IMG/VR virus record: IMGVR_UViG_3300031576_000737
Span: 1 to 41,544 of that record
Reading direction: 5' to 3' (one strand)
Length of the DNA: 41,544 bases
DNA from: a virus
This document shows, piece after piece, positions 3,891 through 35,957 of this stretch. The notes beneath the pieces were generated by a model. The model had not been told where the DNA came from. It worked only from the letters and a program-made list of their open reading frames with translations, and made no database searches. The stretch's first letter is position 1; the number at the start of each line of letters is the position of its first letter. The translations under genes were made by a program, and so were the position numbers.

Positions 3891-4502
3891 CATTCCTGCA
3901 ACACCGTCGGGCCGCACGAGCGCAAGATGAAAAGCGAAAGTTGCGCGAAGGTCTTCGCCAAATTTTCGCCCGCATTTTCCGTGCACGGCCGTTTCCCCCC
4001 TGTAACCCCCCTTCTAATTTTACTAATCTCCTAAGTTAGATCTTAATCTTAGAGACTATGTCTCGTAGAAAATCCTAAGCGCGCTCCCCCGACTTTGCCG
4101 CGACGACTCGCCGACGACAGGCGTTCGCAGCTACGGCCCGCGTCCAGCAGAAAGTAATGCGCAGCGATGTCCGATCGCGTCATCGCAACGTAACGCCCAA
4201 CCCAGGCGAGAAGTAGATAATGCAAAGCGAGAGAACGGCGGAGGGGGGTTTTAGGGGGGAGGGCTCTTCAGAAAAAGAAACGAGCCGAGTTGTGCGTTTT
4301 TTCTTGACTTGTTTTCGCTTGCGCGCGATAAGCAACGAACGGCGGGCCGACGGCTCGGCGGACTGCGGCGCGGCCGCGATGCCCCGAGGTCCGCGGGGCT
4401 CGGCAACTTAGGCGCACGGCCACGGCGAAAGCCTTCCGTCCGTGCAAGCGTCGATTCCACTTTGCGCCGCGCCGGCGGCTCGCTGTCAGGTTTGGGGGAA
4501 GC
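3891..4502 (+). other. Non-coding region with AT-rich core (possible control or origin region)
   Basis: About 600 bases have no convincing gene. Positions 4010-4075 are strikingly AT-rich for this genome and hold imperfect dyads: CTAAG...CTTAG around a central AGATCT, and GAGAC-tat-GTCTC. Around 4240-4265 lies a long purine/G run. The first copy of the 14-mer promoter sits at 4294-4332. An AT-rich, dyad-rich spacer between the end of the lysis operon and the start of the early genes could be an origin, an attachment site or an operator region. The sequence alone does not decide. Confidence 0.4.
4294..4332 (+). promoter_or_regulatory. Phage promoter, copy 1 of 7 (CGTTTTTTCTTGAC family)
   Basis: The 14-mer ends in a -35 TTGACT (4304-4309). 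After 17 bases comes GATAAG (4327-4332) as the -10. Unlike other copies there is no start codon close by. The first good gene starts at 4503, giving a leader of about 165 bases that is rich in GC hairpins. It should start the early transcript. Confidence 0.75.
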
Positions 4503-5048
4503 ATGTCGAGAGGACGGGGACGACGCGGCGGGTGGCAATCGAACAGCGGCAGCCTATTCGCTGGCCGTGCGGAGCCAGCGACGTCCGGCACGGGCCTGCC
4601 CGTTGGGGCGCTCGACGCGGCCCGGCGCTGCCTCCGGCGCCTCGGCGAGTTGTCGGTTCGCGGGACGCTTCAGCCCGCCGGCGCGTTTCTCGTCGTAGAC
4701 CTTGCGGGACGGACGCGGACCGTTGCGAGGCACTTGTCGGGCGAGCTCGCGGCGGCGCTGCGCGTGGTTGGCGAGGAGGCGCGGCGCTCGGCCAACCGGG
4801 TTTCGGCAAGCTACGGGGGCGGGCGCGACCGCTGGCGACTCACGACGGACATGCCGAGGGGCGGGGCCATCGCGACGACGGCGCTGCTCTGGATTGCCTA
4901 CCCCGACGAGGGGGCCACCGACGGGGGGCTCGACGCCGAGCGGGCGATGCACGAGGCCGCCGACGCGCTCGAGGTCGTGGCAGCGATCGACGGCCGGGCG
5001 ACGACGTTTCACGTAAGTGCGGGCCAAGCGCTCGCGCTGAGGGGGTAG
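4503..5048 (+). CDS. Early protein of unknown function
   Basis: A 181-residue protein from ATG 4503, preceded by GGGGGAAGC as ribosome-binding site. The first 20 residues are Gly/Arg-rich. The rest looks like a compact alpha/beta protein (FLVVDLAGRTRTVARHLSGEL, then ATTALLWIAYPDEG). I recognise no family. It is the first gene behind promoter copy 1, so early expression is likely. A longer Arg-rich ORF in another frame across the same bases is judged to be a shadow. Confidence 0.6.
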   Translation: MSRGRGRRGGWQSNSGSLFAGRAEPATSGTGLPVGALDAARRCLRRLGELSVRGTLQPAGAFLVVDLAGRTRTVARHLSGELAAALRVVGEEARRSANRVSASYGGGRDRWRLTTDMPRGGAIATTALLWIAYPDEGATDGGLDAERAMHEAADALEVVAAIDGRATTFHVSAGQALALRG

Positions 5049-5050
5049 CG

Positions 5051-5254
5051 ATGACGGACGAAAACACGACCATTGCGGACGTTCGGCGGGCGGTGGTAAA
5101 GGCCGAGTGTGAAATCCGCTCCAGCCTCCGAGTGCTCGAGCACCTCGGCGTCCAGCCGCTCGCCGTCGAGCTGCGGCTTGTCGAGGCAGCGGGCGGCGGC
5201 TCATTCGTCGTGGACTGCACGGTCAGCTATCGCCTGCCGCGCGGCGATCCCTAG
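5051..5254 (+). CDS. Small early protein
   Basis: This 67-residue ORF starts at ATG 5051, two bases after the previous stop; GGGGGTAGCG serves as ribosome-binding site. The sequence is balanced and acidic at the N-terminus (MTDENTTIADVRRAVVKAE), with a helix and then two beta-like strands (FVVDCTVSYRL). No known domain. Promoter copy 2 begins seven bases after its stop. Confidence 0.6.
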   Translation: MTDENTTIADVRRAVVKAECEIRSSLRVLEHLGVQPLAVELRLVEAAGGGSFVVDCTVSYRLPRGDP

Positions 5255-5260
5255 CGCGTG

Positions 5261-5297
5261 CGTTTTTTCTTGACTCCACCCCACTCGGCGGTATAGG
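5261..5297 (+). promoter_or_regulatory. Phage promoter, copy 2 of 7
   Basis: CGTTTTTTCTTGAC with -35 TTGACT (5270-5275), a 16-base spacer and -10 TATAGG (5292-5297). The GTG start of the next gene lies at 5306, nine bases after the -10. Transcription should begin at or within a base or two of the start codon, which predicts a leaderless mRNA. Confidence 0.8.
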
Positions 5298-5305
5298 GTC
5301 GCGAC

Positions 5306-5659
5306 GTGGCGAAGAAAACCAAGAAGGTCGCTCGGAAACTTACCCCAGCGCAGCGGCGCAAAGGCGCGCTCCTCCTGGACACGACGCGTATGGCGCTCGG
5401 CCAGATCGAGCAGGCATTCGACTGGCTTGAACATGCCGGCGTACGCGTGCTGACGATTGACTTACTCCGCGAGGCGCACCCACTCCGGATGCCGCGCGGC
5501 AACGTGATCACCGGCATGAGGCTCAACGTCGAGTGTCCGGCCGCAATGGCTGGGAAGCCCGGATCGTCAAAGGTCCAGTGCGTCGTGATGAAAGACCGCT
5601 GCTTTAGCTACGGCCCAGGGAGTGGGAAAACGTGGACGGCCGACGCGTCGGACTTATGA
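5306..5659 (+). CDS. Leaderless early protein of unknown function
   Basis: A 117-residue protein from GTG 5306, directly at the expected transcription start of promoter copy 2, with no room for a ribosome-binding site. The N-terminus is basic (MAKKTKKVARKLTPAQRRK). A helix with LDTTRMALGQIEQAFDWLEH and a mixed C-terminal part follow. I recognise no family. The stop overlaps the next start by ATGA, so it is the first gene of a short operon with the DUF932 protein. Confidence 0.7.
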   Translation: MAKKTKKVARKLTPAQRRKGALLLDTTRMALGQIEQAFDWLEHAGVRVLTIDLLREAHPLRMPRGNVITGMRLNVECPAAMAGKPGSSKVQCVVMKDRCFSYGPGSGKTWTADASDL

Positions 5660-6768
5660 AGCCAGGCAGACCGATCGCCGCCCTCGTTTCCGAACTCGAA
5701 CGCCAACGCGACCCGAGCGTCGGGCAGGACTACCGGGTGAACACGGCCCGCCTCACGTACGAGGCTGGCGACGCGGACGCACCTGCGACGCTAGCGATCG
5801 ACGGCGTCGCGGTGTTCCCGCTGACCCCGCTCGCGGAATCGCAGATCATCGAGTGGGCGGGCATCCCCGGACGTTACAGCGACCGAATGCGGGAGCGCAC
5901 GCCGTCGCTCTACGCGGCAAGCGTTAACGCCTGGCTACAGGCGCTCGCGTCCACACGCCTCGTGCGCGTACTCGATGGGCGGGTGCGCGCGTTCGTTCCC
6001 GCCGGCTATCGGCGCCACGACAACTACGACCTGATGACGACGATCGCGCCCGTGCTCTCGACGCCGGGAGTGAAAATCCTGAGCGCCGAGGTGACCAGCC
6101 GACGGCTCTACGTCTACGTGACGTCGGAGGCGATAGAGGCAGAGCTCGCGCCCGACGATTGGATCCGTGCCGGCGTACTCATTCGCGGCTCCGAGGTCGG
6201 GCACGGAACGGTAGAGGTCGAGCCCGTGGTCGCCGGCCGACAGGGGGTTTACGCGATTGTTTTCCCGACGGGGGCCTATCGGCGTTACGATCACGGCGCC
6301 GCCGCACTGACCGACGGCGTTGTAGAGGAGCCGCTGATCGACGACGAGAGGGCGGCACGCGACTCGAATTTCTGGGCGGGCATCCACGACCTCGTCGTCG
6401 CGACGCTCGCCCCGGTCGCGTTTGCCCTGAACGTGGCGACGCTGAAGGCCGCCGCCGGCCACGCGATGCGAAGCGACGAGCAGCAAGGCATCGAGTCCGT
6501 CGCGCGGTGGCTCGGACTGTCGTGGCCCGAGTTCGATCGCCTTGCGAACATTCTCGCCGAGCTGAAGGTCCGGAGAGGCGGAGCGCCGCTTACGCAGGGC
6601 GACGCAGCGGTCGGCGTCGCGATGCTTGCGCACGACGCCGACGACTACGACGTGGCCTACGAGTTCGAGCGGAAGGCCGGGCAACTCGCCCGCGTGCCCG
6701 CTCGGGCGTGGGCGGGGTTTGGCCGGGACTTGAAAGCGGCGAAGGCAAAGGTGACCGCCGGGCCCTAG
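5656..6768 (+). CDS. DUF932-like phage/plasmid protein
   Basis: A 370-residue protein from ATG 5656, chosen because it overlaps the previous stop as ATGA; a GTG at 5632 is the alternative. It resembles the DUF932 family found in phages and plasmids. IPGRYSDRMRERTPSLYAA and the LVRVLDGRVRAFVPAGYRR region followed by HDNYDLM are the typical conserved blocks, and the usual mid-protein VTSRRLYVYVTS strand is present. The biochemical role of DUF932 is not established. Its place in the early region fits a replication or host-interaction function. Length is normal. Confidence 0.75.
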   Translation: MKPGRPIAALVSELERQRDPSVGQDYRVNTARLTYEAGDADAPATLAIDGVAVFPLTPLAESQIIEWAGIPGRYSDRMRERTPSLYAASVNAWLQALASTRLVRVLDGRVRAFVPAGYRRHDNYDLMTTIAPVLSTPGVKILSAEVTSRRLYVYVTSEAIEAELAPDDWIRAGVLIRGSEVGHGTVEVEPVVAGRQGVYAIVFPTGAYRRYDHGAAALTDGVVEEPLIDDERAARDSNFWAGIHDLVVATLAPVAFALNVATLKAAAGHAMRSDEQQGIESVARWLGLSWPEFDRLANILAELKVRRGGAPLTQGDAAVGVAMLAHDADDYDVAYEFERKAGQLARVPARAWAGFGRDLKAAKAKVTAGP

Positions 6769-6783
6769 GGCAGGCGGTAAGGG

Positions 6784-6829
6784 GTCCGGGGTGCGTCGCT
6801 GGGGGGACGGCGGGCGACGCACTCCGGAC
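6784..6829 (+). promoter_or_regulatory. Long intergenic hairpin
   Basis: Arms of 16 bases (6784-6799 and 6814-6829) pair with a single G-U position around a G-rich loop. It lies between the DUF932 stop and the ribosome-binding site of the next gene. No U-run follows, so a role as RNA processing or attenuation signal is as likely as termination. Confidence 0.5.
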
Positions 6830-6849
6830 GACCGAAGGAGGTAACGGGG

Positions 6850-7206
6850 ATGGTGACGAACGAGGACGGAGACAGTACGGCGAGGGCAATCGTGAAGGTC
6901 GCGGCCGTGGCGCTTGTCGCGATGGTCGCGTGCTGGGTGTTCGTTCCCGCCGAAGAGGAGCCGACGGTCGCGGACTCGGGTCTCGTTACCATGGCGACAA
7001 TAGGCGACGGACGCGCGTCTTGGGCCGACGACGACGTCGGCTTTCCGATTCCCGAGCGGCTCATCTTCGAAACAGACACGAGCGACGTGGCCTGGACGCT
7101 CTGCTGGACGGAGTCCGAGGCGCGCGCGTGGAGCGAGGCGACGGATCTCGCGCTAAGGCGCGGCGGGCGCGAGGGGTGCACATGGGAAGTAGTGAAGCGG
7201 CCGTAG
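6850..7206 (+). CDS. Single-span membrane or exported protein
   Basis: This 118-residue protein starts at ATG 6850 after GGAGGTAACGGG. A hydrophobic span at residues about 13-32 (AIVKVAAVALVAMVACWVFV) is followed by an acidic soluble domain with two Cys residues (WTLCWTE and GCTWEV) that could pair outside the membrane. There is no lipobox. Function unknown. It overlaps the next gene by 25 bases. Confidence 0.6.
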   Translation: MVTNEDGDSTARAIVKVAAVALVAMVACWVFVPAEEEPTVADSGLVTMATIGDGRASWADDDVGFPIPERLIFETDTSDVAWTLCWTESEARAWSEATDLALRRGGREGCTWEVVKRP

Positions 7207-7697
7207 CGTCGCGCCCGCTCTTTCCGGAGCCGCGCGGCACGACGTTCAATCGCGCGCGCGACGGACAAAGGCTCGGCGAGCAGTACGCGCGCGTCGTCGA
7301 AGTGATGGCAGACGGGCACTGGCGAACGCTTGCGCTTCTCTCTCAGCTTGCGAGAGCGCCGGAGGCAAGCGTCTCGGCGCGGCTACGAGACGCTCGCCAT
7401 GCGGGCCTCACGGTCGAGCGGCGGCGCGTCCGCGGCGGCCTGCACGAGTATCGGGTCGTCCAGGCGGGGGGCGACGCCACGCCAACAGTGCGAACCGCCG
7501 CGTGCCCGCACTGCGGAGGCACGGCGACGACGCCGGTGACTACGGAGCAGGCCCGGGACCTCCGGCGGCGCGAATGGCACGCCCGGTGCGACGCGTGCGG
7601 CGCGATGGGGCCGGCCGTCGAATCGGTGATGGGAGTGTCGGACCCCCGCGAACGGGCTTGCGAGGCATGGCGCCAGCGCGCGAGGGCGAAGCGGTGA
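7182..7697 (+). CDS. Winged-helix protein fused to Lar-type zinc ribbon
   Basis: A 171-residue protein. Residues about 30-90 look like a winged helix of the kind that ends in a wing and strand: RVVEVMADGHWRTLALLSQL, then RLRDARHAGLTVERRR, then GLHEYRV. Residues about 105-165 carry CPHCGG and CDACGAMGP, followed by a terminal EAWRQR. This is the pattern of Lar-like restriction-alleviation zinc ribbons (CPxCGG, CxxCGAxGP, then AWN/AWR). The zinc-ribbon match is good. Whether it modulates restriction is unproven, since many phage Lar-like ribbons have no tested role. ATG 7182 is inside the previous gene. Confidence 0.65.
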   Translation: MGSSEAAVASRPLFPEPRGTTFNRARDGQRLGEQYARVVEVMADGHWRTLALLSQLARAPEASVSARLRDARHAGLTVERRRVRGGLHEYRVVQAGGDATPTVRTAACPHCGGTATTPVTTEQARDLRRREWHARCDACGAMGPAVESVMGVSDPRERACEAWRQRARAKR

Positions 7698-7777
7698 GCG
7701 GCGCGCGTCGCCGGCTTCTTCTCGCGGCTGCCGCAGCGTGCGCCCTAGCCCTTGCGGTAGCGGTCGTTTTTTCTTGA
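7694..7777 (+). CDS. Membrane microprotein (27 aa)
   Basis: A GTG overlapping the previous TGA opens a 27-residue ORF. It has a basic start (SGARRR) and one continuous hydrophobic helix (LLLAAAAACALALAVAVVF). Its last codons and its TGA stop are supplied by promoter copy 3. The translational overlap and the neat inside-positive helix support it, but it could be chance. Confidence 0.4.
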   Translation: MSGARRRLLLAAAAACALALAVAVVFS

Positions 7778-7802
7778 CACAGGGCGCGAGGCTGGCGATA
7801 GT
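7765..7802 (+). promoter_or_regulatory. Phage promoter, copy 3 of 7
   Basis: CGTTTTTTCTTGAC with -35 TTGACA (7774-7779), a 17-base spacer and -10 GATAGT (7797-7802). The ATG of the next gene is at 7812, ten bases past the -10, again predicting a leaderless or nearly leaderless mRNA. Confidence 0.8.
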
Positions 7803-7811
7803 GCGTGGGAC

Positions 7812-8150
7812 ATGACCGAAGACGAAAACAAGGGCGGCGAGGCGAGCGCGCCGCCCGTAGACACGGTGCCGGCCTGCATGAACCCGGAGTGCGTACGGAA
7901 CCGCGGGACTCTTTGGGTGGCCCTTGGCCTTGCGCAGCGGGTGAGCGAGCGGCTCGGCCACAGCATCGACCGGCTAGACGAGCAGGGCCACTGGCTAAAC
8001 GAACTGCGCCGCGTGCTGAACGAGGTCGCGACGACATTCGGCGCTCCGGCGTTCCTCGCGCGCCTCACCGGGGCGCAGCGCAACGTGATCGCGGACGTAA
8101 TGAGGGCGACGGGCACGGCCCCGACGCGGGAGGAGTCGCCACCGACATGA
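7812..8150 (+). CDS. Leaderless early protein of unknown function
   Basis: A 112-residue protein from ATG 7812, right at the expected start of transcription. It has a short acidic N-terminus, a Cys pair (ACMNPECVRNRG) and a long helical region (LAQRVSERLGHSIDRLDEQG). No recognised domain. Its stop overlaps the next gene by ATGA, so it opens the operon leading to the nuclease and annealing-protein genes. Confidence 0.7.
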   Translation: MTEDENKGGEASAPPVDTVPACMNPECVRNRGTLWVALGLAQRVSERLGHSIDRLDEQGHWLNELRRVLNEVATTFGAPAFLARLTGAQRNVIADVMRATGTAPTREESPPT

Positions 8151-8467
8151 GCGAACCTCGAAGCAAGATCTGCACGAAGTGCCGCCAGCGAAAGACGCTG
8201 GCGGAATTCTCGAAAGCCGCGTACGGCAAGTTCGGACGTCGGAGTGATTGCGGAGCGTGCCACTCGCGCGAGACAGCCGACGTCGCGCGCAAGCGCTACC
8301 GGACCGATCCGGAATATCGGAAGAACAAGCAGGCGACGGAGCTTGAGTACTACCACGAGCACAGAGAGCTCGAGCTGCCGAAGCGCCTCGCACGCGTGCG
8401 CCTGGCAAGGGCGGCGCTGAAGCGGCGGGCGGTCGTTGGGCCGAAGCGGGGGCGACGTACGCCGTGA
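8147..8467 (+). CDS. Zinc-finger protein resembling the N-terminus of HNH/EndoVII-type phage proteins
   Basis: A 106-residue protein overlapping the previous stop. It begins with KICTKCRQRKTLAEFSK followed by CGACHSRE, a four-Cys zinc module often found ahead of phage HNH or endonuclease VII domains. The rest is a highly basic helix (DVARKRYRTDPEYRKNKQA) without the His/Asn residues of a nuclease. It is likely a DNA- or RNA-binding protein that lacks the catalytic half. The HNH protein at 29930 has a similar N-terminal module. Confidence 0.65.
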   Translation: MSEPRSKICTKCRQRKTLAEFSKAAYGKFGRRSDCGACHSRETADVARKRYRTDPEYRKNKQATELEYYHEHRELELPKRLARVRLARAALKRRAVVGPKRGRRTP

Positions 8468-8739
8468 GTCGTAAGGTCGCCCCGGTCGTCACGATCGAAA
8501 CGCTGCCGTTCGCCCGCGACATGCGGTACCGGCTCCGGGCGAAGGTCGGGAACGCGCATGCATGGGTCGATCTGGGCGAGGGCCATCTCCGCGTAATCGC
8601 CGACCTGGCCTCGAAGATTCAGGGTGACCACCACGGCCGCGGGCTGGAAGGGTTCATGCGGTGCAAGCGCGCGATCCTTTCGGTGTTTGGCGCAATGGGT
8701 GTGGACGGTTTCTCGATACGGGAGGAAAGGAAACCGTGA
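8464..8739 (+). CDS. Small phage protein of unknown function
   Basis: A 91-residue protein whose GTG overlaps the previous TGA; its own stop overlaps the next GTG. It is a mixed alpha/beta protein (RYRLRAKVGNAHAWVDLGEG). No known domain is recognised. Tight coupling on both sides makes it part of the recombination operon. Confidence 0.6.
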   Translation: MSRKVAPVVTIETLPFARDMRYRLRAKVGNAHAWVDLGEGHLRVIADLASKIQGDHHGRGLEGFMRCKRAILSVFGAMGVDGFSIREERKP

Positions 8740-9713
8740 GCGACACGCGGGAGGCGGCGGGAGTACTCGGCGGGCTTCCCGGGATGGCGGTGAAGAAGAA
8801 GCCGCACATAAGCGTGACGCAGGTGGACATGCTCGCGAAGTGTGGCGAGCAGTATTTTCGGCGTTACGTGATGGGCGAGAAAACTCCGCCGGGCATTGCG
8901 CTCATCGCCGGGCGCGGGTTGCACGGCAGCAGCGAGCGGCAACTGAAGCACAAGGTCGAGACGGGCGGTCAACTCCCAACGGTCGAGGCCGCGCAGGACT
9001 GGGCGGCCGACGCGTTCCACGCGAGTCTCGGTGAGCAGGGGATTGTCCTCGACGAGGAACAAGAAAAGCTCGGCGTCGAGAAGGTCACGGGAATGGCGCT
9101 TGACGCAACCGTGACGATGGCTCGCGGCTACCTCGAAGCCTACACGCCGACGCTCAACCCGGTCCCGGGAAAGGTGGAGTGGTCGTGGCGGCTCGAGACC
9201 GACTGGACTCACGACGTCGAGGGCGTCGTTGACGTCGTGCACATGCCGAGGCCGGACGTGATCGCGATCTCCGACACGAAAAGCAAAATCGCAAAGGCAC
9301 CGAACAAGACCGAGGCCGACGAGTCGTTTCAGCTTTCGATGTACGCGCTCGCGCACAAGGCGCACGGCGGCATACTCCCGCTGGCGGTGAGTCTCGACTT
9401 CGTGATCGCTCGGCAGCAGAAGGCTGGCGGCTACAAGCCAGATCCGCTGCGTCTCGTGAGCTTACGCACCGCGGAGGACATGGAGCCGACGGTCGCGCGA
9501 CTCAAGCGCGCCGTGGACGTAATCAACGCGGGCGCGTTCGTGCCGGCGAAGCCGACCGACTGGGCCTGCTCGGCGAAGTGGTGCGGTTATTTTTCCACGT
9601 GCAAGTTCGCGCAAGGCTTTAAGCACTTCGGCGCGTCCCCCGAGACGGCGCGCGCCGCGCGTGAGGCGAGCGCCCGTAAGCTCATGGGCTTAGCGGAACC
9701 GGCGGCAGAGTAG
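8736..9713 (+). CDS. RecB/Cas4-like PD-(D/E)XK nuclease with probable Fe-S cluster
   Basis: A 325-residue protein with the RecB-type nuclease layout. There is an early Cys (LAKCGEQYF, about residue 35), then GRGLHGSSE near 60. The core VEGVVDVV follows at about 161-168 with ISDTKSK at about 178-184, where Asp and Lys are catalytic. The QLSMYALAH helix comes next, and then three C-terminal Cys in ACSAKWCGYFSTCKF. One early plus three late Cys is the Cas4/AddB iron-sulphur pattern. It probably resects DNA ends and feeds the annealing-protein candidate encoded next. GTG 8736 overlaps the previous stop; ATG 8784 is an alternative start. Confidence 0.8.
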   Translation: MSDTREAAGVLGGLPGMAVKKKPHISVTQVDMLAKCGEQYFRRYVMGEKTPPGIALIAGRGLHGSSERQLKHKVETGGQLPTVEAAQDWAADAFHASLGEQGIVLDEEQEKLGVEKVTGMALDATVTMARGYLEAYTPTLNPVPGKVEWSWRLETDWTHDVEGVVDVVHMPRPDVIAISDTKSKIAKAPNKTEADESFQLSMYALAHKAHGGILPLAVSLDFVIARQQKAGGYKPDPLRLVSLRTAEDMEPTVARLKRAVDVINAGAFVPAKPTDWACSAKWCGYFSTCKFAQGFKHFGASPETARAAREASARKLMGLAEPAAE

Positions 9714-9770
9714 GTATCGCACAGCGCACGCCTTGCCTTCAGCCGGCAGGCGAGCGCTTAGTAAACGAAC

Positions 9771-9787
9771 GGACCCGACGCGGGTCC
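9771..9787 (+). promoter_or_regulatory. Short hairpin before the annealing-protein gene
   Basis: GGACCCG pairs perfectly with CGGGTCC over an ACG loop, 39 bases before the next ATG. There is no U-run. It may mark a processing site or partial terminator in the 112-base gap. Confidence 0.35.
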
Positions 9788-9825
9788 TAGACGCGCACGC
9801 GCAACGCGGGCGGGAGGGGAGACGG

Positions 9826-11172
9826 ATGAAAAACGAGAACACGGACAAGGGCGGCGGCGAGGACTCGCGCGGGCGCGGCGAAGTGGTGGCGGCCGAGTAC
9901 GGACGGGTGTCGGTCATGGAGCGGAGTCCGCAAGCGAGCGCGCTCGAGCAGGCGGCCATTGCCGACGTGATGGTCGGCGCCCGACTTGCGCAGATGAACC
10001 CGCGCAATTGGTTTGACTGCCGCGCACGCATTCTCAAATCGTGCGGGAACCTATTGTTCGCCGACGCGGCAATCTACGCGAAGCCCGTGGGCGGCGAGAA
10101 GAAGCGCGGCTTCTCCGTCAGGTTCGCCGAGGAGTGCGTGCGCCAGCTCGGCAACATGAAGGTGCAGATCGCCCAGATCGCCGACTTCGCCGACTCGCGC
10201 GTCGTCAAGGTCACGGTGTGGGACATGGAAACCTGCACGAGCATTTCGCAGGACGTGACGATCATGAAGCGGCTCGAGCGCCGCGACTGCTCGGGGCGCG
10301 TCGTGATCAGCGAGCGCAAAAATAAGGAAGGCCGCGCGCTCTACATCGTCGAAGCGACCGACGACGAGCTGCGGATGATCGAGAACCGCGAGGTATCATT
10401 TGCCTTTCGGAACGTCGTCCTCCGGCTCGTACGCGAAGACCTGCAGCTCGAGGCCTGGGCAGCGTGCGAGAAAACAATTCAGGCGCAGGTGACGAGCGAC
10501 CCCGAGGCGGAGCTGAAGGCGGTGTGCGACGGCTTCCGCGGGCTGAACATCATGCCGGCGCAACTCGAGCAACGCCTCGGCCACAAGCTCGGCGAGACAA
10601 CGCCGGCCGAGATCATGGAGCTGCGCCACGACTTCAAGGCGCTGCGCGACGGCGAGACGACGTGGCCCGCCATCGTCGAGCAGGCCGAGGAACGGCGAGC
10701 GGCACGCCAAGCGTCGGGGCGATCCTCGGCGAAGATGCCGGAGGGCACGCCTACGGCAACGCCCGACGGGGATGCGGCAGGACGCCCGAAGCGCAAACGG
10801 CAGCGCAGAAAGACGGCGCCGCCGGTGGACGACGGGAGGATTGCCGGCGAGACCATGCGGGCGGGCGAGCCCCCGCCGCCGCGACGCAGCGAGCCCTCCG
10901 CCGCCGAGGTTACGACAACGCCACCGGCCGCCGCGAGTGATCAGTCGGTCTCGCCCGCGCTCCAGGCTTTCCTCGACGCACGCGCCACGCTGAAGAAGCT
11001 CGCGCAGGAGCGCTTTCCTGAGCAGGCAGAGGAGAGGCTCGACACGGTGTCGTTCGCGATGATGGGGAGGAAGGCTGCCGATCTGAAAGCTATCGGCGAG
11101 ATCCAGACAGTCATCGACGTCATGCGCAGGACGAGCGACGAAGAACTGCTGCGCATCGTCCGGGGCCGCTAG
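9826..11172 (+). CDS. Putative single-strand annealing (recombination) protein
   Basis: A 448-residue protein from ATG 9826 after GGGAGGGGAGACGG. The N-terminal two thirds match a widespread phage family of annealing-protein type. RGFSVRFAEECVRQLGNMKV is followed by strands ending in a conserved SFAFRNVVLRLV segment, and then a helical block with RLGHKLGETTPAEIMELR. Next comes a low-complexity Arg/Lys/Pro linker (residues about 300-370) and a short helical end. The assignment rests on the family pattern and on position between a RecB-like nuclease and SSB, the classic exonuclease/annealing/SSB order. Biochemical proof for this family is limited to my recollection. Confidence 0.55.
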   Translation: MKNENTDKGGGEDSRGRGEVVAAEYGRVSVMERSPQASALEQAAIADVMVGARLAQMNPRNWFDCRARILKSCGNLLFADAAIYAKPVGGEKKRGFSVRFAEECVRQLGNMKVQIAQIADFADSRVVKVTVWDMETCTSISQDVTIMKRLERRDCSGRVVISERKNKEGRALYIVEATDDELRMIENREVSFAFRNVVLRLVREDLQLEAWAACEKTIQAQVTSDPEAELKAVCDGFRGLNIMPAQLEQRLGHKLGETTPAEIMELRHDFKALRDGETTWPAIVEQAEERRAARQASGRSSAKMPEGTPTATPDGDAAGRPKRKRQRRKTAPPVDDGRIAGETMRAGEPPPPRRSEPSAAEVTTTPPAAASDQSVSPALQAFLDARATLKKLAQERFPEQAEERLDTVSFAMMGRKAADLKAIGEIQTVIDVMRRTSDEELLRIVRGR

Positions 11173-11186
11173 ACGCGGAGAGCGGC

Positions 11187-11570: not shown

Positions 11571-11595
11571 GGACGCGGCATGGGGGGTGGGCAAC

Positions 11596-12980: not shown

Positions 12981-12983
12981 ACT

Positions 12984-15509: not shown

Positions 15510-15556
15510 GGCGGTGCGGGTGCGGCGCGCTCGCCGCTCCGGTATGCTCGGGCAGG

Positions 15557-20703: not shown

Positions 20704-20741
20704 CGTTTTTTCTTGACCCTCTAGCCCCGCGCCCGCATACT
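20704..20741 (+). promoter_or_regulatory. Phage promoter, copy 4 of 7
   Basis: CGTTTTTTCTTGAC with -35 TTGACC (20713-20718), a 17-base spacer and -10 CATACT (20736-20741). The ATG of the next gene is at 20750, nine bases on, predicting a leaderless mRNA. Confidence 0.8.
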
Positions 20742-21413: not shown

Positions 21414-21453
21414 TGCGTTTTTTCTTGACACGCCCCGGCGGGCTATGTATAGC
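21414..21453 (+). promoter_or_regulatory. Phage promoter, copy 5 of 7
   Basis: The 14-mer with -35 TTGACA (21425-21430), a 17-base spacer and -10 TATAGC (21448-21453). Instead of a leaderless start, the transcript should begin with a 5' hairpin (21461-21476), as it does after copy 7. Confidence 0.8.
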
Positions 21454-21460
21454 CCTTTCA

Positions 21461-21495
21461 CGCCGATGGAACGGCGGCGAACGGAGGGCGGAAAC
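21461..21495 (+). promoter_or_regulatory. 5'-terminal hairpin plus ribosome-binding cassette (copy A)
   Basis: CGCCG and CGGCG pair around the loop ATGGAA at the expected 5' end of the RNA. ACGGAGGGCGG, a ribosome-binding site, comes next, and ATG 21496 follows. The cassette after promoter copy 7 has the same loop and spacing but the stem is CGGCG/CGCCG, so the middle pair is swapped while pairing is kept. Confidence 0.6.
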
Positions 21496-21582
21496 ATGAA
21501 GGAAACGATCAAGACGTCGGAGACGGAATGGACGCGGGTCGGACCGACGATGCAGGCGCGGCGCGCCCATGGGAGGGACTGA
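21496..21582 (+). CDS. Very short ORF (28 aa) ending in palindrome 4
   Basis: ATG 21496 has a good ribosome-binding site (GGAGGG). The product MKETIKTSETEWTRVGPTMQ plus eight residues ends in sequence made by the palindrome (ARRAHGRD). It may be a gene shortened by the palindrome insertion or a leader peptide coupled to the next gene, since the stop overlaps its ATG (TGATG). Confidence 0.4.
   Translation: MKETIKTSETEWTRVGPTMQARRAHGRD
21555..21567 (+). repeat. Palindrome family, copy 4 of 5
   Basis: GGCGCGGCGCGCC, the 13-base core, followed by CATGGGAGGGACTG. GGGAGG is the ribosome-binding site for the gene at 21582, the same arrangement as at copies 1 and 2. Confidence 0.75.
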
Positions 21583-26592: not shown

Positions 26593-26607
26593 CGCACGGG
26601 GGCGGGG

Positions 26608-26645
26608 CGTTTTTTCTTGACAGCTTTGCGCAGGTCGGGCAGGGT
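26608..26645 (+). promoter_or_regulatory. Phage promoter, copy 6 of 7
   Basis: The 14-mer with -35 TTGACA (26617-26622), a 17-base spacer and a weak -10 CAGGGT (26640-26645). The tRNA begins at 26655, ten bases on. No other copy follows until 35919, so this promoter may drive the tRNA and the entire head operon. Confidence 0.7.
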
Positions 26646-26654
26646 GGCCCGGGT

Positions 26655-26727
26655 GCCAGCGTAGCTCAGACGGTAGAGCGGCGGTTTCGTAAATCGCGGG
26701 TCGTCGGTTCGACTCCGGCCGTTGGCT
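26655..26727 (+). tRNA. tRNA-Thr (anticodon CGT)
   Basis: All four arms can be drawn. Acceptor GCCAGCG pairs with CGTTGGC (one G-U). The D arm is GCTC/GAGC. The anticodon stem is GCGGT/ATCGC with loop TTCGTAA. The T arm is GTCGG/CCGGC with loop TTCGACT. The discriminator base is T and no CCA is encoded. The anticodon CGT reads ACG, a codon used heavily in these genes. It is placed at the 5' end of the transcript from promoter copy 6. Confidence 0.9.
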
Positions 26728-26751
26728 TAGTCTGGCCAAAGGGCAAACGGG

Positions 26752-29032: not shown

Positions 29033-29112
29033 CGTTCCCGCGCGTGCAGGTGATGCCCGTCGAGGTGACGCGCGAACTCGACGACGACGAGTTCACGATC
29101 CACATGCTATGA
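29029..29112 (+). CDS. Short coupled ORF (27 aa)
   Basis: GTG 29029 overlaps the previous TGA and its own TGA overlaps the next ATG (ATGA). The product (TFPRVQVMPVEVTRELDDDE then FTIHML) is well balanced and not hydrophobic. The double overlap is the same style as neighbouring genes and argues that it is translated. Function unknown. Confidence 0.5.
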   Translation: MTFPRVQVMPVEVTRELDDDEFTIHML

Positions 29113-29906
29113 GCGAGCACGTCGAATCCGCGAGGGCGCGTTGCGCCCGTGCCGTCGCGTTCGACGTCGTGCGCTTCGCGGGGCCCGCCGGCTCACGGCT
29201 CGGCCGCCGGCGCACGACGATGGAGGCGGCGATGATGCTCGCCTCTGGCAGTATCCGCGAGGCCGCTACGGGGCCTGTCATCGTCGAGGCCGGGACCATA
29301 CGGACCGCCGGCAACTGGGACGGCGACGGCCAGAGCACGGTCGTGTGGGGCCGCTGGGTGCAAAGGATCGGCGGTGGCTGCGTCTACTCATTCGACCCCG
29401 ATCCCGCCGCGATCGCGCAGGCGCAGATGGCGCTTGACCAGGGAAAGATTCACCACCGAACGTTCACCCACGGGCTGGAAGCCGCCGACGCCTTCCGCGC
29501 CGCCACTCCCGGCCGTCCGCTCGAGGTGGCACTCGTCTGCGCGCCGGCCGAGGACGCCGAGCGCGGCATTCCCGACCTCGGCTGCTCCGTCATCAACCTC
29601 CTCTACTTGGACGCTGGCGACCTCGTAGGCGGCGAGCTCGACATGGCCGCTCGTCTCAACCGCGAGATATTTCTCACCGCCCGCGAGTCCGTCGAAGCTG
29701 CCGGCACATACGGCACCGTGCTCATTGACGACGTGAACTGGAAGGCCACCGAGACGCGCGGCAAGGGGCGCTACGTGTTCGAGGAAATGGCGGCGCGCGG
29801 CTGGCACCGGTACAAGATGGCGCCGGGCTACGACTATCAGGGGCTCGCCACCGTGGGCGCGCCCGATATAGACCCCGGCGCGATGTGGGGCGTGCCGCTG
29901 GCTTAG
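29109..29906 (+). CDS. SAM-dependent methyltransferase-like protein
   Basis: A 265-residue protein from ATG 29109. The pattern VIVEAGTIRTAGNWDGDGQS, then GGCVYSFDPDPAAI, then LLYLDAGD, then GTYGTVLIDDVNW is that of Methyltransf_24-like Rossmann enzymes, with an SAM-binding loop, an acidic ribose contact and a metal-binding LDAGD/DD pair. The gene is in the head operon, where a glycan or small-molecule methyltransferase would be unexpected. It could alter capsid or surface groups. Substrate unknown. Confidence 0.55.
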   Translation: MSEHVESARARCARAVAFDVVRFAGPAGSRLGRRRTTMEAAMMLASGSIREAATGPVIVEAGTIRTAGNWDGDGQSTVVWGRWVQRIGGGCVYSFDPDPAAIAQAQMALDQGKIHHRTFTHGLEAADAFRAATPGRPLEVALVCAPAEDAERGIPDLGCSVINLLYLDAGDLVGGELDMAARLNREIFLTARESVEAAGTYGTVLIDDVNWKATETRGKGRYVFEEMAARGWHRYKMAPGYDYQGLATVGAPDIDPGAMWGVPLA

Positions 29907-29929
29907 CGGGAGCGACGTGCCTGGCGCCT

Positions 29930-30439
29930 ATGAAGCCGCGCCGGAAACCACGCGTCATCGCTGGCACCGAGCTCTGGCTATGCCCGACTTGCGTGCGGTG
30001 GCTACCGAGGGCGTCCTACTACTCGAAGCGCAACTCGTGGAACGGAATCGGCGGGCAATGCCGGCGTTGCCATGTCGCTGGCGCGAGTCGGACGCGCGAT
30101 CCGGACAAGGCGCGACGGGTCAATCGGGAATCGATGGCGCGGCGCCGAGCGGCGAACCTGGATGAAGCCCGGGAGCGCGCACGGCTCTATACCCAAGGAC
30201 TGCCGTGGACGATCCAGCGTGAGGCGCGCTATCAACTGAACCTCGCGGTGGCGCGTGGCGAGATCTCGCGACCCTCGGAATGCAGTGACTGCGGCTGCGA
30301 CGGCCTCATCCACGGCCACCACGACGACTACCGCCAGCCGCTTGTCGTCGTATGGCTCTGCCCGCTCTGCCACGCGACGCGCCATCGACACGAGCGTGTG
30401 GCGCCCCGCCCAGCCGCCAGCGTGAAGCCCACCGACTGA
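29930..30439 (+). CDS. HNH-type endonuclease, terminase-associated
   Basis: A 169-residue protein from ATG 29930. An N-terminal four-Cys module (LWLCPTCVRWLPRASYYSKR, then CRRCHVAG) precedes a basic helix. The C-terminal HNH-like region has SECSDCGCDGLIHGHHDDY, then WLCPLCHATRHRHE. The Cys pairs hold structural zinc and the HGHHDDY and final His residues form the active site. HNH proteins near portal and terminase genes of HK97-type phages support cos cleavage. The N-terminal module recalls the protein at 8147. Confidence 0.75.
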   Translation: MKPRRKPRVIAGTELWLCPTCVRWLPRASYYSKRNSWNGIGGQCRRCHVAGASRTRDPDKARRVNRESMARRRAANLDEARERARLYTQGLPWTIQREARYQLNLAVARGEISRPSECSDCGCDGLIHGHHDDYRQPLVVVWLCPLCHATRHRHERVAPRPAASVKPTD

Positions 30440-30488
30440 CGACGTACAATCCACGGCAGGGCCGGCGCTCGAGGCGTAGCGGTGCGGG

Positions 30489-32795
30489 GTGCAGGTGGAG
30501 CTGGACGAACTGCTGGCCGAGCAAGGGGCGACACCGTCCCTCATCGTAGGACCCGACGGGCGCACGCCCGCGCGCGAGTACGCGACGCGCGACGCGCTCG
30601 ACGACGATACCCTACAGTTCAAACGCGGCGCCGAGACTAAGGGCGCAGCCCTCAACTCCCGCAACGCACTCGTTGCCGTCGAGGCAATCTACAAGTGTGT
30701 CACCATAATCTCGTCGTGGGTGTCGCGTCTCCCGCGTCGCATCGTCCACATTCGCGCCGACGGCACCGAGAAAACCCTCCCGAATCACTGGCTTGCGAAG
30801 AAGCTCAACCGCCCGATGCCAGGCATGTCGGGGAAGGAGTTCATCTACGGCACGGTGATGCAGCAGGAGATGACCGGCATGGCGTTCTGGTGGCCGCGCG
30901 GCACCGACCGCGGCCAACTGACGAAGAAGCCCGTGCTGGCGCAGCTGTCGCTTCTCCCCTCGCACGCGATGCGCGCACGCCGCGATCGCGTCACAGGCCA
31001 AGTGATCGCCTGGACCTATCTCGCGCTCCACGGAACGGAGACACGCCAGTACCAGTTCGGGGAGCTCGTGACGCCGAAGTACTACAACCCCGACGACCCG
31101 GATCTCGGGCTGGCGCCACTCTGGGCCGCGATGCGCACCGCCCGAACCGACGTGAAGGCCGCGGCCTACAGCGAGAGCTTCTTCGACAATAGCGCCACGC
31201 CGTCCACGTTGCTGATCTACAAGAAGGGCCGGCTCTCGCCCATTCAGCGCCAGCAAGAGGAGACGCAGTTCACGCAGCGCTACGCCGGCGCGAAGAACGC
31301 CGGGCGCGTCGCCACGCTGTCGGGCGACTGGGACTTGAAGCAGCTGAGCCTGACGCAGGCGGACATGCAGCTCTTGGAGACCCGGCGCGACCTCGGGCGC
31401 AAGATCGGCATGGTCTACGGCGTGCCGGGGATCTTTCTCGCCGACCCGAACGAGAGCAACTACGCGACGGCCAGCGTCGAGGAGCGCTTCCTTGCCGAGT
31501 ACACGTGCAAGCCGAAGGCCGAGGCGTTGGAGGAGATCATCACCGAGCAGCTGGTCGAGAAGTACGCGCCGGGCCAGGATCTCGCGTTCCGTTTCGACTA
31601 CTCGAACGCCCCGGGGCTCCGCGCCGACACGGTGCAGCAGGCAGCGACGGCAAAGGCGTGGTTCGACATGGGGGCCACGTACAACGACGTCGTGAAGCTG
31701 ACGAACGTGCAGCTGCCCGAGCAGGAATGGGGCGCGACGTGGTGGAAGTCGGCGATGCTCGAGGATGTCAACGCGATTGATCCCCTTCCCGCCGAAGAAG
31801 AGGCGGATCCCGATGACGACGAAGCGGAGGTCGAGGAGGAGCCGCCCGAGGACGACGCCGCCGCCGAGGATGAAGACGGCGACGAAGAAGCCGGGCCGGC
31901 GAGCTTCGCCGAGGATGGGCGCGGCGCGCCCTCTATCATCGAGCACCGTGAGAACATGGCAGCCCTACGGCGCGCGCTCATCCAGGACGCGACGCGCGAC
32001 GCCTACTGGCGCGCATGGATTCGGCGGCTCGCGCCCCCCGTCGCCCGGATGCAATCGAAGCTCCGGCGCTACTTCTTCGAGCTCCGGCAAGAGGTACTCG
32101 ACAACCTCGTACAGGTAGCCGAGGCCGGCGGCATCCCGGCCGGCGACGCCAAGGCGATGGCCGACGCGGTGACGCGCGCAAGCGGAGACGTTATCTCCCG
32201 GATCCTTTTCGACCGAAGCAAAGCCGACGATCGGCTTCGAAAGGTCGTCGCGCCGGGGCTCCGCGAGTCGATCGAGATGGGCGCCGACCAGGCGCTCGCC
32301 GAGCTCCAAGTGGAGGAGGGCTTCACGATCGAGGCGAGCGACGCTGGCAGTACGGCGTTCTCGAACCGGCTGAACAAGATCGTCGGCGTAAACGAGACGG
32401 TGTTCATCCGGCTGCAGGAGACGCTCGCGAAGGGCCTCGACAACGGGGAGAGCGTGAGCGAGATGGCCGCTCGCATTTCGGGCGAACTGAACAACGCGGC
32501 GCAGCGCGCCCGGACCATCGCACGTACGGAGGTGGGCACGGCCGTGCAGAAGGGGCGGCAGATTGCGCTCGCGCAAGAGGGCATTGAGAAGCACGAGTGG
32601 CTGAGCTCGCGCGACGACGAGGTGCGCGGAAGCGACCCGAAAGACAAGTATAATCACCTCATAGACGGCGAGGTCGTGAAGCTCGGTGAGGAGTTCAGCG
32701 TCGGGCTCAAGTTCCCGCTCGACGACGAGGGCAGCGGGAGCGAGGCCGGGAATGTCGTGAACTGCAGGTGCACGAGCGTCCCGTCGCTCGATTGA
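30489..32795 (+). CDS. HK97 portal protein fused to MuF head-morphogenesis domain
   Basis: A 768-residue protein from GTG 30489. Residues 1 to about 430 are an HK97-family portal: NALVAVEAIYKCVTIISSWV, then GRKIGMVYGVPGIFLADP, then ATASVEERFLAEYTCKP. A strongly acidic linker follows (about 434-476). Then DGRGAP is coded by palindrome copy 5. From about 480 comes a helical region and a MuF/SPP1 gp7 domain (LNNAAQRARTIARTEVGTAV, then CRCTSVPSL). Portal and MuF genes are usually separate; here they are one frame joined at the palindrome. The portal ring is the packaging and connector vertex. MuF proteins enter the head and help assembly. Confidence 0.9.
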   Translation: MQVELDELLAEQGATPSLIVGPDGRTPAREYATRDALDDDTLQFKRGAETKGAALNSRNALVAVEAIYKCVTIISSWVSRLPRRIVHIRADGTEKTLPNHWLAKKLNRPMPGMSGKEFIYGTVMQQEMTGMAFWWPRGTDRGQLTKKPVLAQLSLLPSHAMRARRDRVTGQVIAWTYLALHGTETRQYQFGELVTPKYYNPDDPDLGLAPLWAAMRTARTDVKAAAYSESFFDNSATPSTLLIYKKGRLSPIQRQQEETQFTQRYAGAKNAGRVATLSGDWDLKQLSLTQADMQLLETRRDLGRKIGMVYGVPGIFLADPNESNYATASVEERFLAEYTCKPKAEALEEIITEQLVEKYAPGQDLAFRFDYSNAPGLRADTVQQAATAKAWFDMGATYNDVVKLTNVQLPEQEWGATWWKSAMLEDVNAIDPLPAEEEADPDDDEAEVEEEPPEDDAAAEDEDGDEEAGPASFAEDGRGAPSIIEHRENMAALRRALIQDATRDAYWRAWIRRLAPPVARMQSKLRRYFFELRQEVLDNLVQVAEAGGIPAGDAKAMADAVTRASGDVISRILFDRSKADDRLRKVVAPGLRESIEMGADQALAELQVEEGFTIEASDAGSTAFSNRLNKIVGVNETVFIRLQETLAKGLDNGESVSEMAARISGELNNAAQRARTIARTEVGTAVQKGRQIALAQEGIEKHEWLSSRDDEVRGSDPKDKYNHLIDGEVVKLGEEFSVGLKFPLDDEGSGSEAGNVVNCRCTSVPSLD
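31917..31931 (+). repeat. Palindrome family, copy 5 of 5 (at the portal/MuF junction)
   Basis: GGGCGCGGCGCGCCC in the reading frame of the fused gene, right between the acidic portal tail and the MuF part. It could be the relic of an intergenic element that once separated two genes. Confidence 0.8.
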
Positions 32796-32835
32796 TCCAG
32801 GCGAGCCCGTGGGTGGTGGCGGAGAGGTGGCGAGG

Positions 32836-34518
32836 ATGAAAAGGGCAGCAGTCGCAACTAAGCCGGGGGGTATCCCGGGGCTCGGTCCCGTCGAGTGGCG
32901 AGCTGGCGAGCACAGCCGGATCGTCGTTCCGACGCGCGCGACGCGCGTGGCCACGGCCGACTCCGACCGCGTCGTTCACTTCATCGGCTCGACGCAGCGG
33001 GTGGACCGCTACCGCACGAAGCTCGTCGGCTGGATTCTGAAGGAGTACCGCAAGAACCCCATGTTCCTGTGGCAGCACATGAGCTGGGACGCCCCGCTCG
33101 GGCGCGCCATCCGTGTCGGGATGAACGAGGAGGGCGAACTCGCCTTCGACATAGAGTTCGTACCCGGCGACTTGATCCCGTTTGCCGACACGGCGCTGCG
33201 CCTGGTCCTCGAGAAGTGGATGCGTGCGTGTTCCGTCGGCTTCCAGCCGAACAAGGTTGAGCGAATCGAGGAGGGCGAGGACGCCGGGGTCTACATCCTG
33301 AAGGAGAACGACCTGCTCGAACTCTCGCTGGTCAGCGTGCCGGCGAACCCGGACGCGCTCGTGAAGCTCACGGCGACTGTGCCGGAGCCACACCGTGGGC
33401 TGCTCGTCGCCAATCAGCGGGTGGCGGAGGTGGACGGGTTGACGATAGTGCAGGCACGAAAGCGATTCACCGAGTGGGCGCACGACGCACCGATTCCCGA
33501 GCTAGACGATCGGCCGACTGCGGATGCGGACGGCGACGAGCTGTGCTCGCTTGTCGCGTGGACGAAGGAGTCGGGCGAGGAGAAAGGCAAGCGCTACGTC
33601 GTACTGGCGGCCGGCGAGTTTGGAGCGGGGCCCGGTGACGACGACGACGACGAGGAGGAGGGCGGCAGCGAGCCCGAGCCGGTGCCCGCCCAGCTCGCGA
33701 CCGCAGCGATCGAGGCGATGGACAGCGCCACGCGCGGCGGCGTGTTCGCGATAGCCTTCGCCCGTGCGGCACGGAAAGCGGGCATTCCAGTCGAGGACTT
33801 GGAGCGGCTCGACCCGACGCTTGGCGTGAGTGGATGCGCCGCGGGCTTCGACGCGTTGTTCGCGGGGCTCCGAACTTCGATCCTGACGAAACTCGTGGCC
33901 GAGCTCGAAGAGTTGGCCGGCGCCGATGATGACGAGGCGAGGGCGGGTGCGGTGCTCAACCGGGCGAACAAGACGCGGCTCCGGAACATCAAGACGCTCG
34001 CACAGGAGGTTCTCGACAGCGCTGGTGATTCCGACGAAGAGGACGCGGCGAGCGTGACGACGATCCGCGAGGGTGCGGACGGCAAGGCCGAGGGGGACGA
34101 CGACGAAGCCCCGGCCGACGTGACGCCAGCCGTGACGCCGACCGAAACGCCGGCGGTAGGCGATCCGTCACCGACCGAGGCCGAGGCGATCCCTGCGGGG
34201 GATCCGCCGCCCAACGAGGGCGATCGCGTAGAGGCGGCACTCGCGCGCATGGAGCGTACGTTCTCGGACACGGTGACGAAGAAGCTCGCGGGTATCGAGG
34301 ACCGCGTGGCCGGTGTCGTCGAGCGCCTCTCGGCGTTCGAGGCGAAGCACTTGGGGCGCGCGCTGGTACAAGGCCGGCGACAAACCATTTACGATAAGAT
34401 CATAAGCGCTGGTAACAGGCTCGACGCGGCGGCCTCCGGGGGCGAGCGCAAAAGCGCACCGACCCCCGCCGTAGGCCAGGGCCGCAACAAGCCGAAAGCA
34501 CGCGCGGGCGCGAGGTAA
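32836..34518 (+). CDS. Prohead protease (S78) with long scaffold-like extension
   Basis: A 560-residue protein from ATG 32836. The first 200 residues are an HK97-type prohead protease. RVVHFIGSTQRVDRYRTKL is followed by the catalytic His in FLWQHMSWDAPLGRA (about 81), the Ser in MRACSVGF (about 133), and the LLELSLVSVPANPDAL block. The remaining 360 residues are acidic and helical with an Asp-rich run (DDDDDEEEGG), Pro/Thr linkers and a final coiled coil. This fits a fused scaffold of the delta-domain type. It cuts capsid and scaffold during maturation. Confidence 0.85.
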   Translation: MKRAAVATKPGGIPGLGPVEWRAGEHSRIVVPTRATRVATADSDRVVHFIGSTQRVDRYRTKLVGWILKEYRKNPMFLWQHMSWDAPLGRAIRVGMNEEGELAFDIEFVPGDLIPFADTALRLVLEKWMRACSVGFQPNKVERIEEGEDAGVYILKENDLLELSLVSVPANPDALVKLTATVPEPHRGLLVANQRVAEVDGLTIVQARKRFTEWAHDAPIPELDDRPTADADGDELCSLVAWTKESGEEKGKRYVVLAAGEFGAGPGDDDDDEEEGGSEPEPVPAQLATAAIEAMDSATRGGVFAIAFARAARKAGIPVEDLERLDPTLGVSGCAAGFDALFAGLRTSILTKLVAELEELAGADDDEARAGAVLNRANKTRLRNIKTLAQEVLDSAGDSDEEDAASVTTIREGADGKAEGDDDEAPADVTPAVTPTETPAVGDPSPTEAEAIPAGDPPPNEGDRVEAALARMERTFSDTVTKKLAGIEDRVAGVVERLSAFEAKHLGRALVQGRRQTIYDKIISAGNRLDAAASGGERKSAPTPAVGQGRNKPKARAGAR

Positions 34519-34591
34519 GACGTCCGAAAGGGTTTCTGTCGCCGGCGGCGCAGGCCGCGTGGTGGTTGTGGTGGTGGTGGAGGATAAGGCG

Positions 34592-35821
34592 ATGGTAGAG
34601 AAAGTGATTCCCGGGACGCCGAAAGCGCCCGACGTGCACACGATCAGTGATGACCAACTGACGCGTCTGCTCGGAACCGTCGAGAAGTGCGAGGAAAAAC
34701 TCCACACGCTCGACGACATGTCCACTAAATATCCGATTCTCGAGGCGGCCTTCGATGACATGAAGGAGCGCCTCAAGCTGATGGAGGACAAGCGCGGGGG
34801 CGGACCCCGCGAGTGGCGCAGCGCATTCTCCGCGAACGACGAGCAGGAGCAGCGGCGACGCAAGCTCTGCGAGTTTGTCGTGGACGTGTACCGCTGCGAC
34901 TTCGTTCGCAACTACGAACCCACGAGCGGCCTGATGACCCGCGACAGCGGCGACGTGCAGGTTGGCAACGCGGACGCAGCGGGCGGCGTGACTGTGCCCG
35001 ACCTCGTGGCCCCGGAGATCGTGCGCATCGTGCGCAGTTTCGGCCGAGCCCGCGAGTTGTTCCGTCCGTTCCCCATGGGCTCGGACGTCGTGAAGCTCCC
35101 GACGCGTGACGAGTCCGGCGGCAAGGGCGTGAAGGTGATCTGGGTAGACCAGGCCGTCGCACCCACCGAGGACAAGGAAGAGTTCTCGAGCGCAACGCTG
35201 GCGGCGTTGAAGCTCGCGGCGCTCACCGAAATGTCCCGCGAGCTCGAGACCGACAGTTCGGTCAACTTCGCCGGCTACTTGCTCGACGTCATGGGCGAGG
35301 CGACGGCGCGTGAAGAGGACAACCAGGGATTCGTGGCAACCACGCCGTTCCTCGGCGTCTACGCAAACACGCTCCTCGTGACCGAGCGTACGAGCGCCAG
35401 CTCGTTTGCATCGCTCAGTTACGATGACTTGGTCGGCGCCGAGACCGCGGTCGATGAGCAGCTCATCGGCGAGGGAACCTGGGTCTTCAACTCGAAGATG
35501 CTGAAGTTCCTGCGTTCGATCAAGGACACCACGAACATGCCGATCTGGGCACCGATGGCGGTGGGGCAGCCCGCGACCATTCTCGGCCGCCCCTATCGGG
35601 TCGTGAACGTGATGAACAAGACGGACGGCGCGGACAAGGTGATGATCGGCTACGGTGATCACCGTTTCCACGTGTTCGGCACCCGCGATCCGTTCGCGGT
35701 TGCCTTCAGCTCGGAGGCTGGTTTCAAACGCGACACGCGGTGGATCCGTATCACCGAGCGGATCGCGTTCGTGACCACGGTCCCCGGCGCGTTCTCGGTC
35801 ATCAAGACCGCGGCGTCGTAA
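34592..35821 (+). CDS. Major capsid protein, HK97 fold
   Basis: A 409-residue protein from ATG 34592 (GGAGGATAAGG upstream; GTG 34559 is unlikely). The N-terminal 100 residues form a coiled-coil delta domain (QLTRLLGTVEKCEEKLHTLD, then FDDMKERLKLMED), probably removed by the protease. The HK97 core follows: AGGVTVPDLVAPEIVRIV, then KLAALTEMSRELETDSSVNF, then WVFNSKMLKFLRSIKD, then GRPYRVVNVMNK, then the end strands. It forms the head shell. Confidence 0.92.
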   Translation: MVEKVIPGTPKAPDVHTISDDQLTRLLGTVEKCEEKLHTLDDMSTKYPILEAAFDDMKERLKLMEDKRGGGPREWRSAFSANDEQEQRRRKLCEFVVDVYRCDFVRNYEPTSGLMTRDSGDVQVGNADAAGGVTVPDLVAPEIVRIVRSFGRARELFRPFPMGSDVVKLPTRDESGGKGVKVIWVDQAVAPTEDKEEFSSATLAALKLAALTEMSRELETDSSVNFAGYLLDVMGEATAREEDNQGFVATTPFLGVYANTLLVTERTSASSFASLSYDDLVGAETAVDEQLIGEGTWVFNSKMLKFLRSIKDTTNMPIWAPMAVGQPATILGRPYRVVNVMNKTDGADKVMIGYGDHRFHVFGTRDPFAVAFSSEAGFKRDTRWIRITERIAFVTTVPGAFSVIKTAAS

Positions 35822-35868
35822 GGCATAAACGGGCACGCTGTGCCCATAGCCGCCCCGCCTGGGGCACC

Positions 35869-35901
35869 CACGGCCGGACCCTCGAAAGGGGGCCGGCCGT
35901 G
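35869..35901 (+). terminator. Terminator-like hairpin after the capsid gene
   Basis: CACGGCCGG pairs with CCGGCCGTG; a loop with CTCGAAAGGG lies between. A smaller hairpin GGGCAC-gct-GTGCCC stands at 35831-35845. The next U-run (35922-35927) belongs to promoter copy 7. Core arm and loop match the hairpin at 3857-3890. Confidence 0.65.
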
Positions 35902-35918
35902 GCCGTTTGGGGGGTCTG

Positions 35919-35957
35919 TCGTTTTTTCTTGACAAGGGGCTCCGGGCTTGGTACTCG
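35919..35957 (+). promoter_or_regulatory. Phage promoter, copy 7 of 7
   Basis: The 14-mer with -35 TTGACA (35929-35934), a 17-base spacer and -10 TACTCG (35952-35957). It should start the accessory operon at 36001 and onward. A 5' hairpin follows, as after copy 5. Confidence 0.8.

Follow-up and report, generated by a model that had tools for sequence, protein, structure and literature searches.

The systems closest to the repeat described here are found both in phages and in host transcription. The early promoters of phage T4 form a UP/-35/TGn/-10 class that is served by the host polymerase and has extra conserved letters (PMC2988021). WhiB7 binds sigma-A region 4 and, immediately 5' of the -35, an A-tract (PMC10245118). 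The stoperators of cluster A phages are short, asymmetric, intergenic repeats in one orientation (PMC9283540), and the start-associated sequences (SAS) of cluster K phages are phage-specific 13-bp repeats near gene starts (PMC3203893). The window analyzed here spans an entire virus record (41,544 bases) and carries seven exact copies of the 14-letter sequence CGTTTTTTCTTGAC, in which a run of six Ts is joined to a TTGAC -35 box. As probable promoters, the seven copies illustrate sharply an established phage strategy, the use of uniform strong promoters.

The resemblance to T4 early promoters lies in the many near-uniform strong promoters across the genome, the A/T-tract upstream of a consensus -35, and conserved letters beyond what sigma-70 needs. 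The present copies differ in having a letter-perfect upstream box, a weak and variable -10, and near-leaderless starts, and phage and host are unrelated. An A-tract immediately 5' of the -35 in a sigma-A promoter is also a feature of WhiB7-dependent promoters, but no WhiB protein was recognized among the phage proteins scanned. Stoperators occur in promoterless intergenic gaps as well, whereas here every copy has a promoter arrangement and the copies are fewer. The SAS overlaps the Shine-Dalgarno (SD) sequence and lies 3 to 7 bp from the start codon, whereas CGTTTTTTCTTGAC ends 31 to 194 bases upstream. Finally, phiC31 has a palindromic promoter repeat (the top repeat in a control run was CTACTCACGTGAGTAG-like), and CGTTTTTTCTTGAC is not palindromic.

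A uniform promoter set with a T-run placed in this way is seen in a second record. IMGVR_UViG_3300009509_000004 (G017), an unrelated phage record of 106.8 kb and 54% G+C, has ten uniform promoters laid out as A7, a CTCCAAGG-like middle, a T-run, C, TTGACT, 17 bases, and a TATAAT-like -10. They share with the present set the T-run one base upstream of TTGAC and the 17-base spacer, but most have a near-perfect -10, and they have A7 upstream, a conserved spacer and leader, and SD-led genes. The bases before the T-run vary in G017, whereas C, G, and C are invariant here. The ten promoters indicate that this uniform design, with a T-run one base 5' of TTGAC, has arisen in more than one phage. Most of them (loci L305-L310) lie at 88 to 96 kb, mostly on the - strand.

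A sequence-only reading of the window had reported seven identical 14-mers confined to the + strand, and a recount of the record found the same seven. Four of its coordinates were right and three were off by 1 to 2 bases (now 4295, 21416, and 35920; all positions are in Table 1). No dinucleotide-preserving shuffle reached seven copies (expected number, ~0), and no imperfect copies were found in the whole record with one or two mismatches allowed (0.14 expected at two mismatches). The record has a G+C content of 66.5%, and seven of the eight T6 runs on its + strand are inside CGTTTTTTCTTGAC. The gene map leaves 4.4% of positions intergenic and all seven copies fall there, so the probability of this arrangement by chance is ~3e-10. 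Outside the 14 letters, most copies have unrelated sequence, so that a longer block duplicated in recent times does not account for their identity; only P5 and P7 have more in common, ~73 nt at 75% identity. The letters C, G, and C flanking the T-run and the count of six Ts are invariant, and agreement of the three flank columns across seven unrelated copies has a chance of ~1e-9, calculated from base composition.

Table 1. Predicted promoters and associated features in the window
Feature	Position	Strand	Description
P1 promoter	4295..4332	+	CGTTTTTTCTTGAC, spacer 17, -10 GATAAG 4327-4332
P1 predicted transcription start	~4339		leader ~164 nt to ATG 4503
P2 promoter	5261..5297	+	spacer 16, -10 TATAGG 5292-5297; GTG 5306, predicted near-leaderless
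P3 promoter	7765..7802	+	spacer 17, -10 GATAGT 7797-7802; ATG 7812, predicted near-leaderless
P4 promoter	20704..20741	+	spacer 17, -10 CATACT 20736-20741; ATG 20750, predicted near-leaderless
P5 promoter	21416..21453	+	spacer 17, -10 TATAGC 21448-21453; SD-led ATG 21496
P6 promoter	26608..26645	+	spacer 17, weak -10 CAGGGT 26640-26645; tRNA 33 bases past motif
P7 promoter	35920..35957	+	spacer 17, weak -10 TACTCG 35952-35957; SD-led ATG 36001
tRNA-Thr (CGT)	26655..26727	+	predicted first transcribed feature of P6; ARAGORN, Rfam RF00005
P5 leader	21460..21498	+	CACGCCGATGGAACGGCGGCGAACGGAGGG: possible 5-bp hairpin, loop AUGGAA, then SD, ATG 21496
P7 leader	35964..36003	+	CACGGCGATGGAACGCCGAGGAACGGAGGG: possible P5-type hairpin, one compensatory pair, then SD, ATG 36001
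IS1595 transposase promoter	1293..1339	-	TTGACA-18-TATTCT, 7 nt to ATG, without CGTTTTTTC
DDE transposase promoter	40218..40255	+	TTGACA-17-TATTAC, without CGTTTTTTC

Judged from their sequence, we are nearly certain that the seven sites are promoters of one class. TTGAC is present at all seven in a sigma-70-type -35/-10 arrangement, and the summed similarity to TATAAT is 20/42 at spacer 17 (counted from TTGACN), compared with 3 to 14 at the other spacers scanned between 3 and 44. This single peak bears out the earlier assignment of TTGAC as the -35 with a hexamer 17 bases on (16 in one copy). The -10 hexamers match four of the six TATAAT letters at five sites and two of six at P6 and P7. None of the seven has an extended -10; the -10 is weak and variable, and the upstream box is letter perfect. 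In all copies, the T6 run lies at about -42 to -37, so that an A/T-tract precedes the -35 at the position expected for alpha-CTD.

The promoter reading is independently supported by the fixed distance of 31 to 33 bases that separates the motif from start codons and from a tRNA 5' end, a regularity absent from the sequence-only reading. The motif, its positions, its spacing, and these distances are direct observations. Measured from its last letter, the motif lies 31 (P2), 33 (P3), and 32 (P4) bases before the start codon, 33 bases before the tRNA-Thr (P6), and 66 and 67 bases before the SD-led ATGs of P5 and P7, respectively. Start codons are predictions here and transcription starts are deduced from the position of the -10; with the start taken 7 bases after the -10, leaders of 2 to 3 bases result at P2, P3, P4, and P6, and the start codons and the tRNA stand where such a start would put them. 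Besides that of P1, the predicted starts are near 5304 (P2), 7809 (P3), 20748 (P4), 21460 (P5), 26652 (P6), and 35964 (P7). The earlier proposal that the copies mark operon starts agrees with these distances and with the intergenic position of all seven. We infer from this arrangement the promoter activity and start sites of seven units. Those of P1 to P3 contain genes of unknown function together with nuclease and replication genes, those of P4 and P5 extend up to and including the large terminase, that of P6 comprises the tRNA and the portal-to-capsid genes, and that of P7 the genes past the capsid gene. The leaderless pattern occurs elsewhere in 26 scattered stretches, as a single copy in each.

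The leaders of P5 and P7 could form related hairpins (CGCCG-AUGGAA-CGGCG and CGGCG-AUGGAA-CGCCG, respectively), and GAACGGAGG is common to both. When the P5 leader was folded freely, a different structure was preferred over the AUGGAA hairpin. A search for this leader hairpin pattern elsewhere gave no match.

The record provides an internal control in the form of two transposase genes near its ends, one of IS1595 type (358-1293, - strand) and one of DDE type (40220-41506, + strand). When the record was scanned for TTGAC with a good -10, matches other than the seven sites were confined to the terminal transposon regions, namely, the two transposase promoters and a single site on the - strand next to the second transposase, and none of these has the box. 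Because the insertion sequence (IS) promoters have TTGACA and a -10 without CGTTTTTTC, we assign CGTTTTTTC to the phage's own units. The same two promoters corroborate the earlier view that CGTTTTTTC exceeds what a sigma-70 promoter needs.

The explanation that we favor, as probable but well short of secure, is that the seven sites constitute one phage-wide class of host-type sigma-70/sigma-A promoters, each bearing the same unvarying UP-like A-tract. Sigma region 4 would contact TTGAC, with an xATAxx-type -10 located 17 bases on in most copies. By position, CGTTTTTTC would lie at about -44 to -36 as an A-tract that directly adjoins the -35, and it most likely boosts promoter strength through direct polymerase contact (at the alpha-CTD proximal UP position) and DNA shape, which would offset the weak -10 boxes in a genome of 66.5% G+C. 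In four units, transcription would begin 2 to 3 bases ahead of the start codon or tRNA, and in two (P5 and P7) ~36 bases ahead of the SD-led ATG. Reading of the T-run by polymerase alone, although the most likely mode, is the weakest step. A generic UP element tolerates variation, yet the C/G/C flanks and six Ts are invariant, and this counts against the explanation, as do the two weak -10 boxes (P6 and P7). The phage presents a letter-perfect set of predicted promoters in a high-G+C genome in which the upstream A-tract, and not the -10, is conserved.

We place the A-tract (UP-like) reading above one in which the box is the site of a factor, as a judgment and not as a proof. Under the second reading, which we regard as possible but consider the less likely, an activator of phage or host origin reads CGTTTTTTC beside sigma region 4 in a WhiB7-like manner, and the seven promoters form one regulon. 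The precedent is WhiB7 itself, which grips sigma-A region 4 and the A-tract upstream of the -35 (PMC10245118). Invariant C/G/C flanks, exactly six Ts, all-or-none conservation, the weak -10 boxes of P6 and P7, and the absence of the box from the IS promoters of the same record all speak for such a factor. Against it, Pfam recognized none of the HTH, WhiB, sigma, and AT-hook families in the phage proteins scanned, structure predictions of two orphan proteins were unusable (pLDDT 43), and a consensus TTGAC is retained. Promoters that depend strictly on an activator often lack a consensus -35. A more specific proposal seems unlikely to us, namely, that an unrecognized phage-encoded factor reads CGTTTTTTC while docked on sigma region 4. 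One promoter class would then be the sole driver of the replication, packaging, tRNA, and structural modules, half of the units would give near-leaderless messages, and the whole genome would be switched by one protein.

We consider it improbable that the 14-mer is an operator resembling the cluster A stoperators, at which a repressor bound over the -35 would silence the promoters in a lysogen. The site is indeed asymmetric, has a single orientation with transcription, and is scattered between operons, and the L5-type sites are 13-mers of such a kind (PMC9283540). However, a promoter-like arrangement follows all seven copies, no intergenic copy is promoterless, no repressor, which in cluster A phages has two DNA-binding domains, was recognized with Pfam/PHROGs in the phage proteins scanned, and no phage integrase was found; both transposases come from IS elements. 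Least credible of all is a terminator-promoter junction in which CGTTTTTTC would supply the U-tract of an intrinsic terminator, a reading that we reject for this phage because, even though all seven sites are at operon boundaries and the 14-mer with a good -10 in other phages often has a compact stem ending in its CG (13/29 sites; 0.8 expected), such a stem is found at 0/7 sites here (1.2 expected) and the sequence 5' of the T-run has hairpin energies at background, no better than those of random CG sites (P = 0.67).

In other phages, the excess of stems (expectations are from shuffles, over 29 distinct sites with a good -10) indicates that CGTTTTTTCTTGAC commonly joins a terminator to the promoter that follows it. 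Among 84 sites with a poor -10 in other phages, five have the stem (5.5 expected). One example of stem and T-run reads CGCGCATTTCCACAACGGAAGTGCGCG-TTTTTTC-TTGACT, and terminator tails fused to promoters are seen in many other phages, including loci L009, L011, L017, L037, L067, L127, L136, L145, L146, L130, L052, and others. An A+T-rich family, CGCAGGAAACCTTTCTTGCG-TTTTTTC-TTGACA-17-TATATT, has two copies in one record. Two origins of the same 14 letters can be told apart: in this phage they make up a stand-alone promoter box, whereas in others they are a terminator tail fused to a promoter, and annotation pipelines could confuse the two.

The stand-alone box of this phage was also sought in relatives and candidate hosts. 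The 14-mer occurs in at least 119 stretches of viral contigs, with one copy in each; whole-record counts in 49 virus records, a sample of those bearing it, gave two copies in one record and a single copy in every other. Searches of viral contigs by terminase and portal gave no close match. The phages matched by an alignment-based terminase search were only ~26 to 32% identical, and no repeated TTGAC 12-mer was found in them. No comparable repeat was found in distant relatives that the portal search gave within candidate host genomes (G162 and G083). The IS1595 transposase has copies in Deltaproteobacteria and Nitrospirales MAGs that match it at 60 to 68% identity, which weakly hints at a host class; among 148 genomes of this class, 10 contained the 14-mer (11 hits), and a reversed control gave similarly few.

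Several other features of the record were noted. A 17-bp palindrome, TGGGCGCG-G-CGCGCCCA, is repeated at 15556, 16628, 19387, 21553, and 31916 (11 strand-matches, with 2.1 expected), in at least two cases directly before an SD and start codon (15582 and 21582). Just upstream of P1, the region 3985-4065 is A+T rich with inverted repeats (GAGACTATGTCTC and CTAAGTTAGATCTTAATCTTAG) and is a possible origin or attachment site. The IS1595-type transposase gene, with its ATG 7 bases after the -10, may be leaderless too. It sits between methylase-like pieces (region 1-1665), with the motif LDPPFNSAQ (- strand, before base 45) on one side and the C-terminal part of a methylase at 1333-1630 (+ strand) on the other. 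At the other end, 38090-41544 may be a transposon with a restriction-modification system, comprising a BsaWI-like endonuclease (38228-39079), an N4/N6 methylase (39046-39981, - strand), and the DDE/SWIM transposase; its boundaries are marked by CCGGCTTTGCC and, at the very end of the record, GGCAAAGCCGG.
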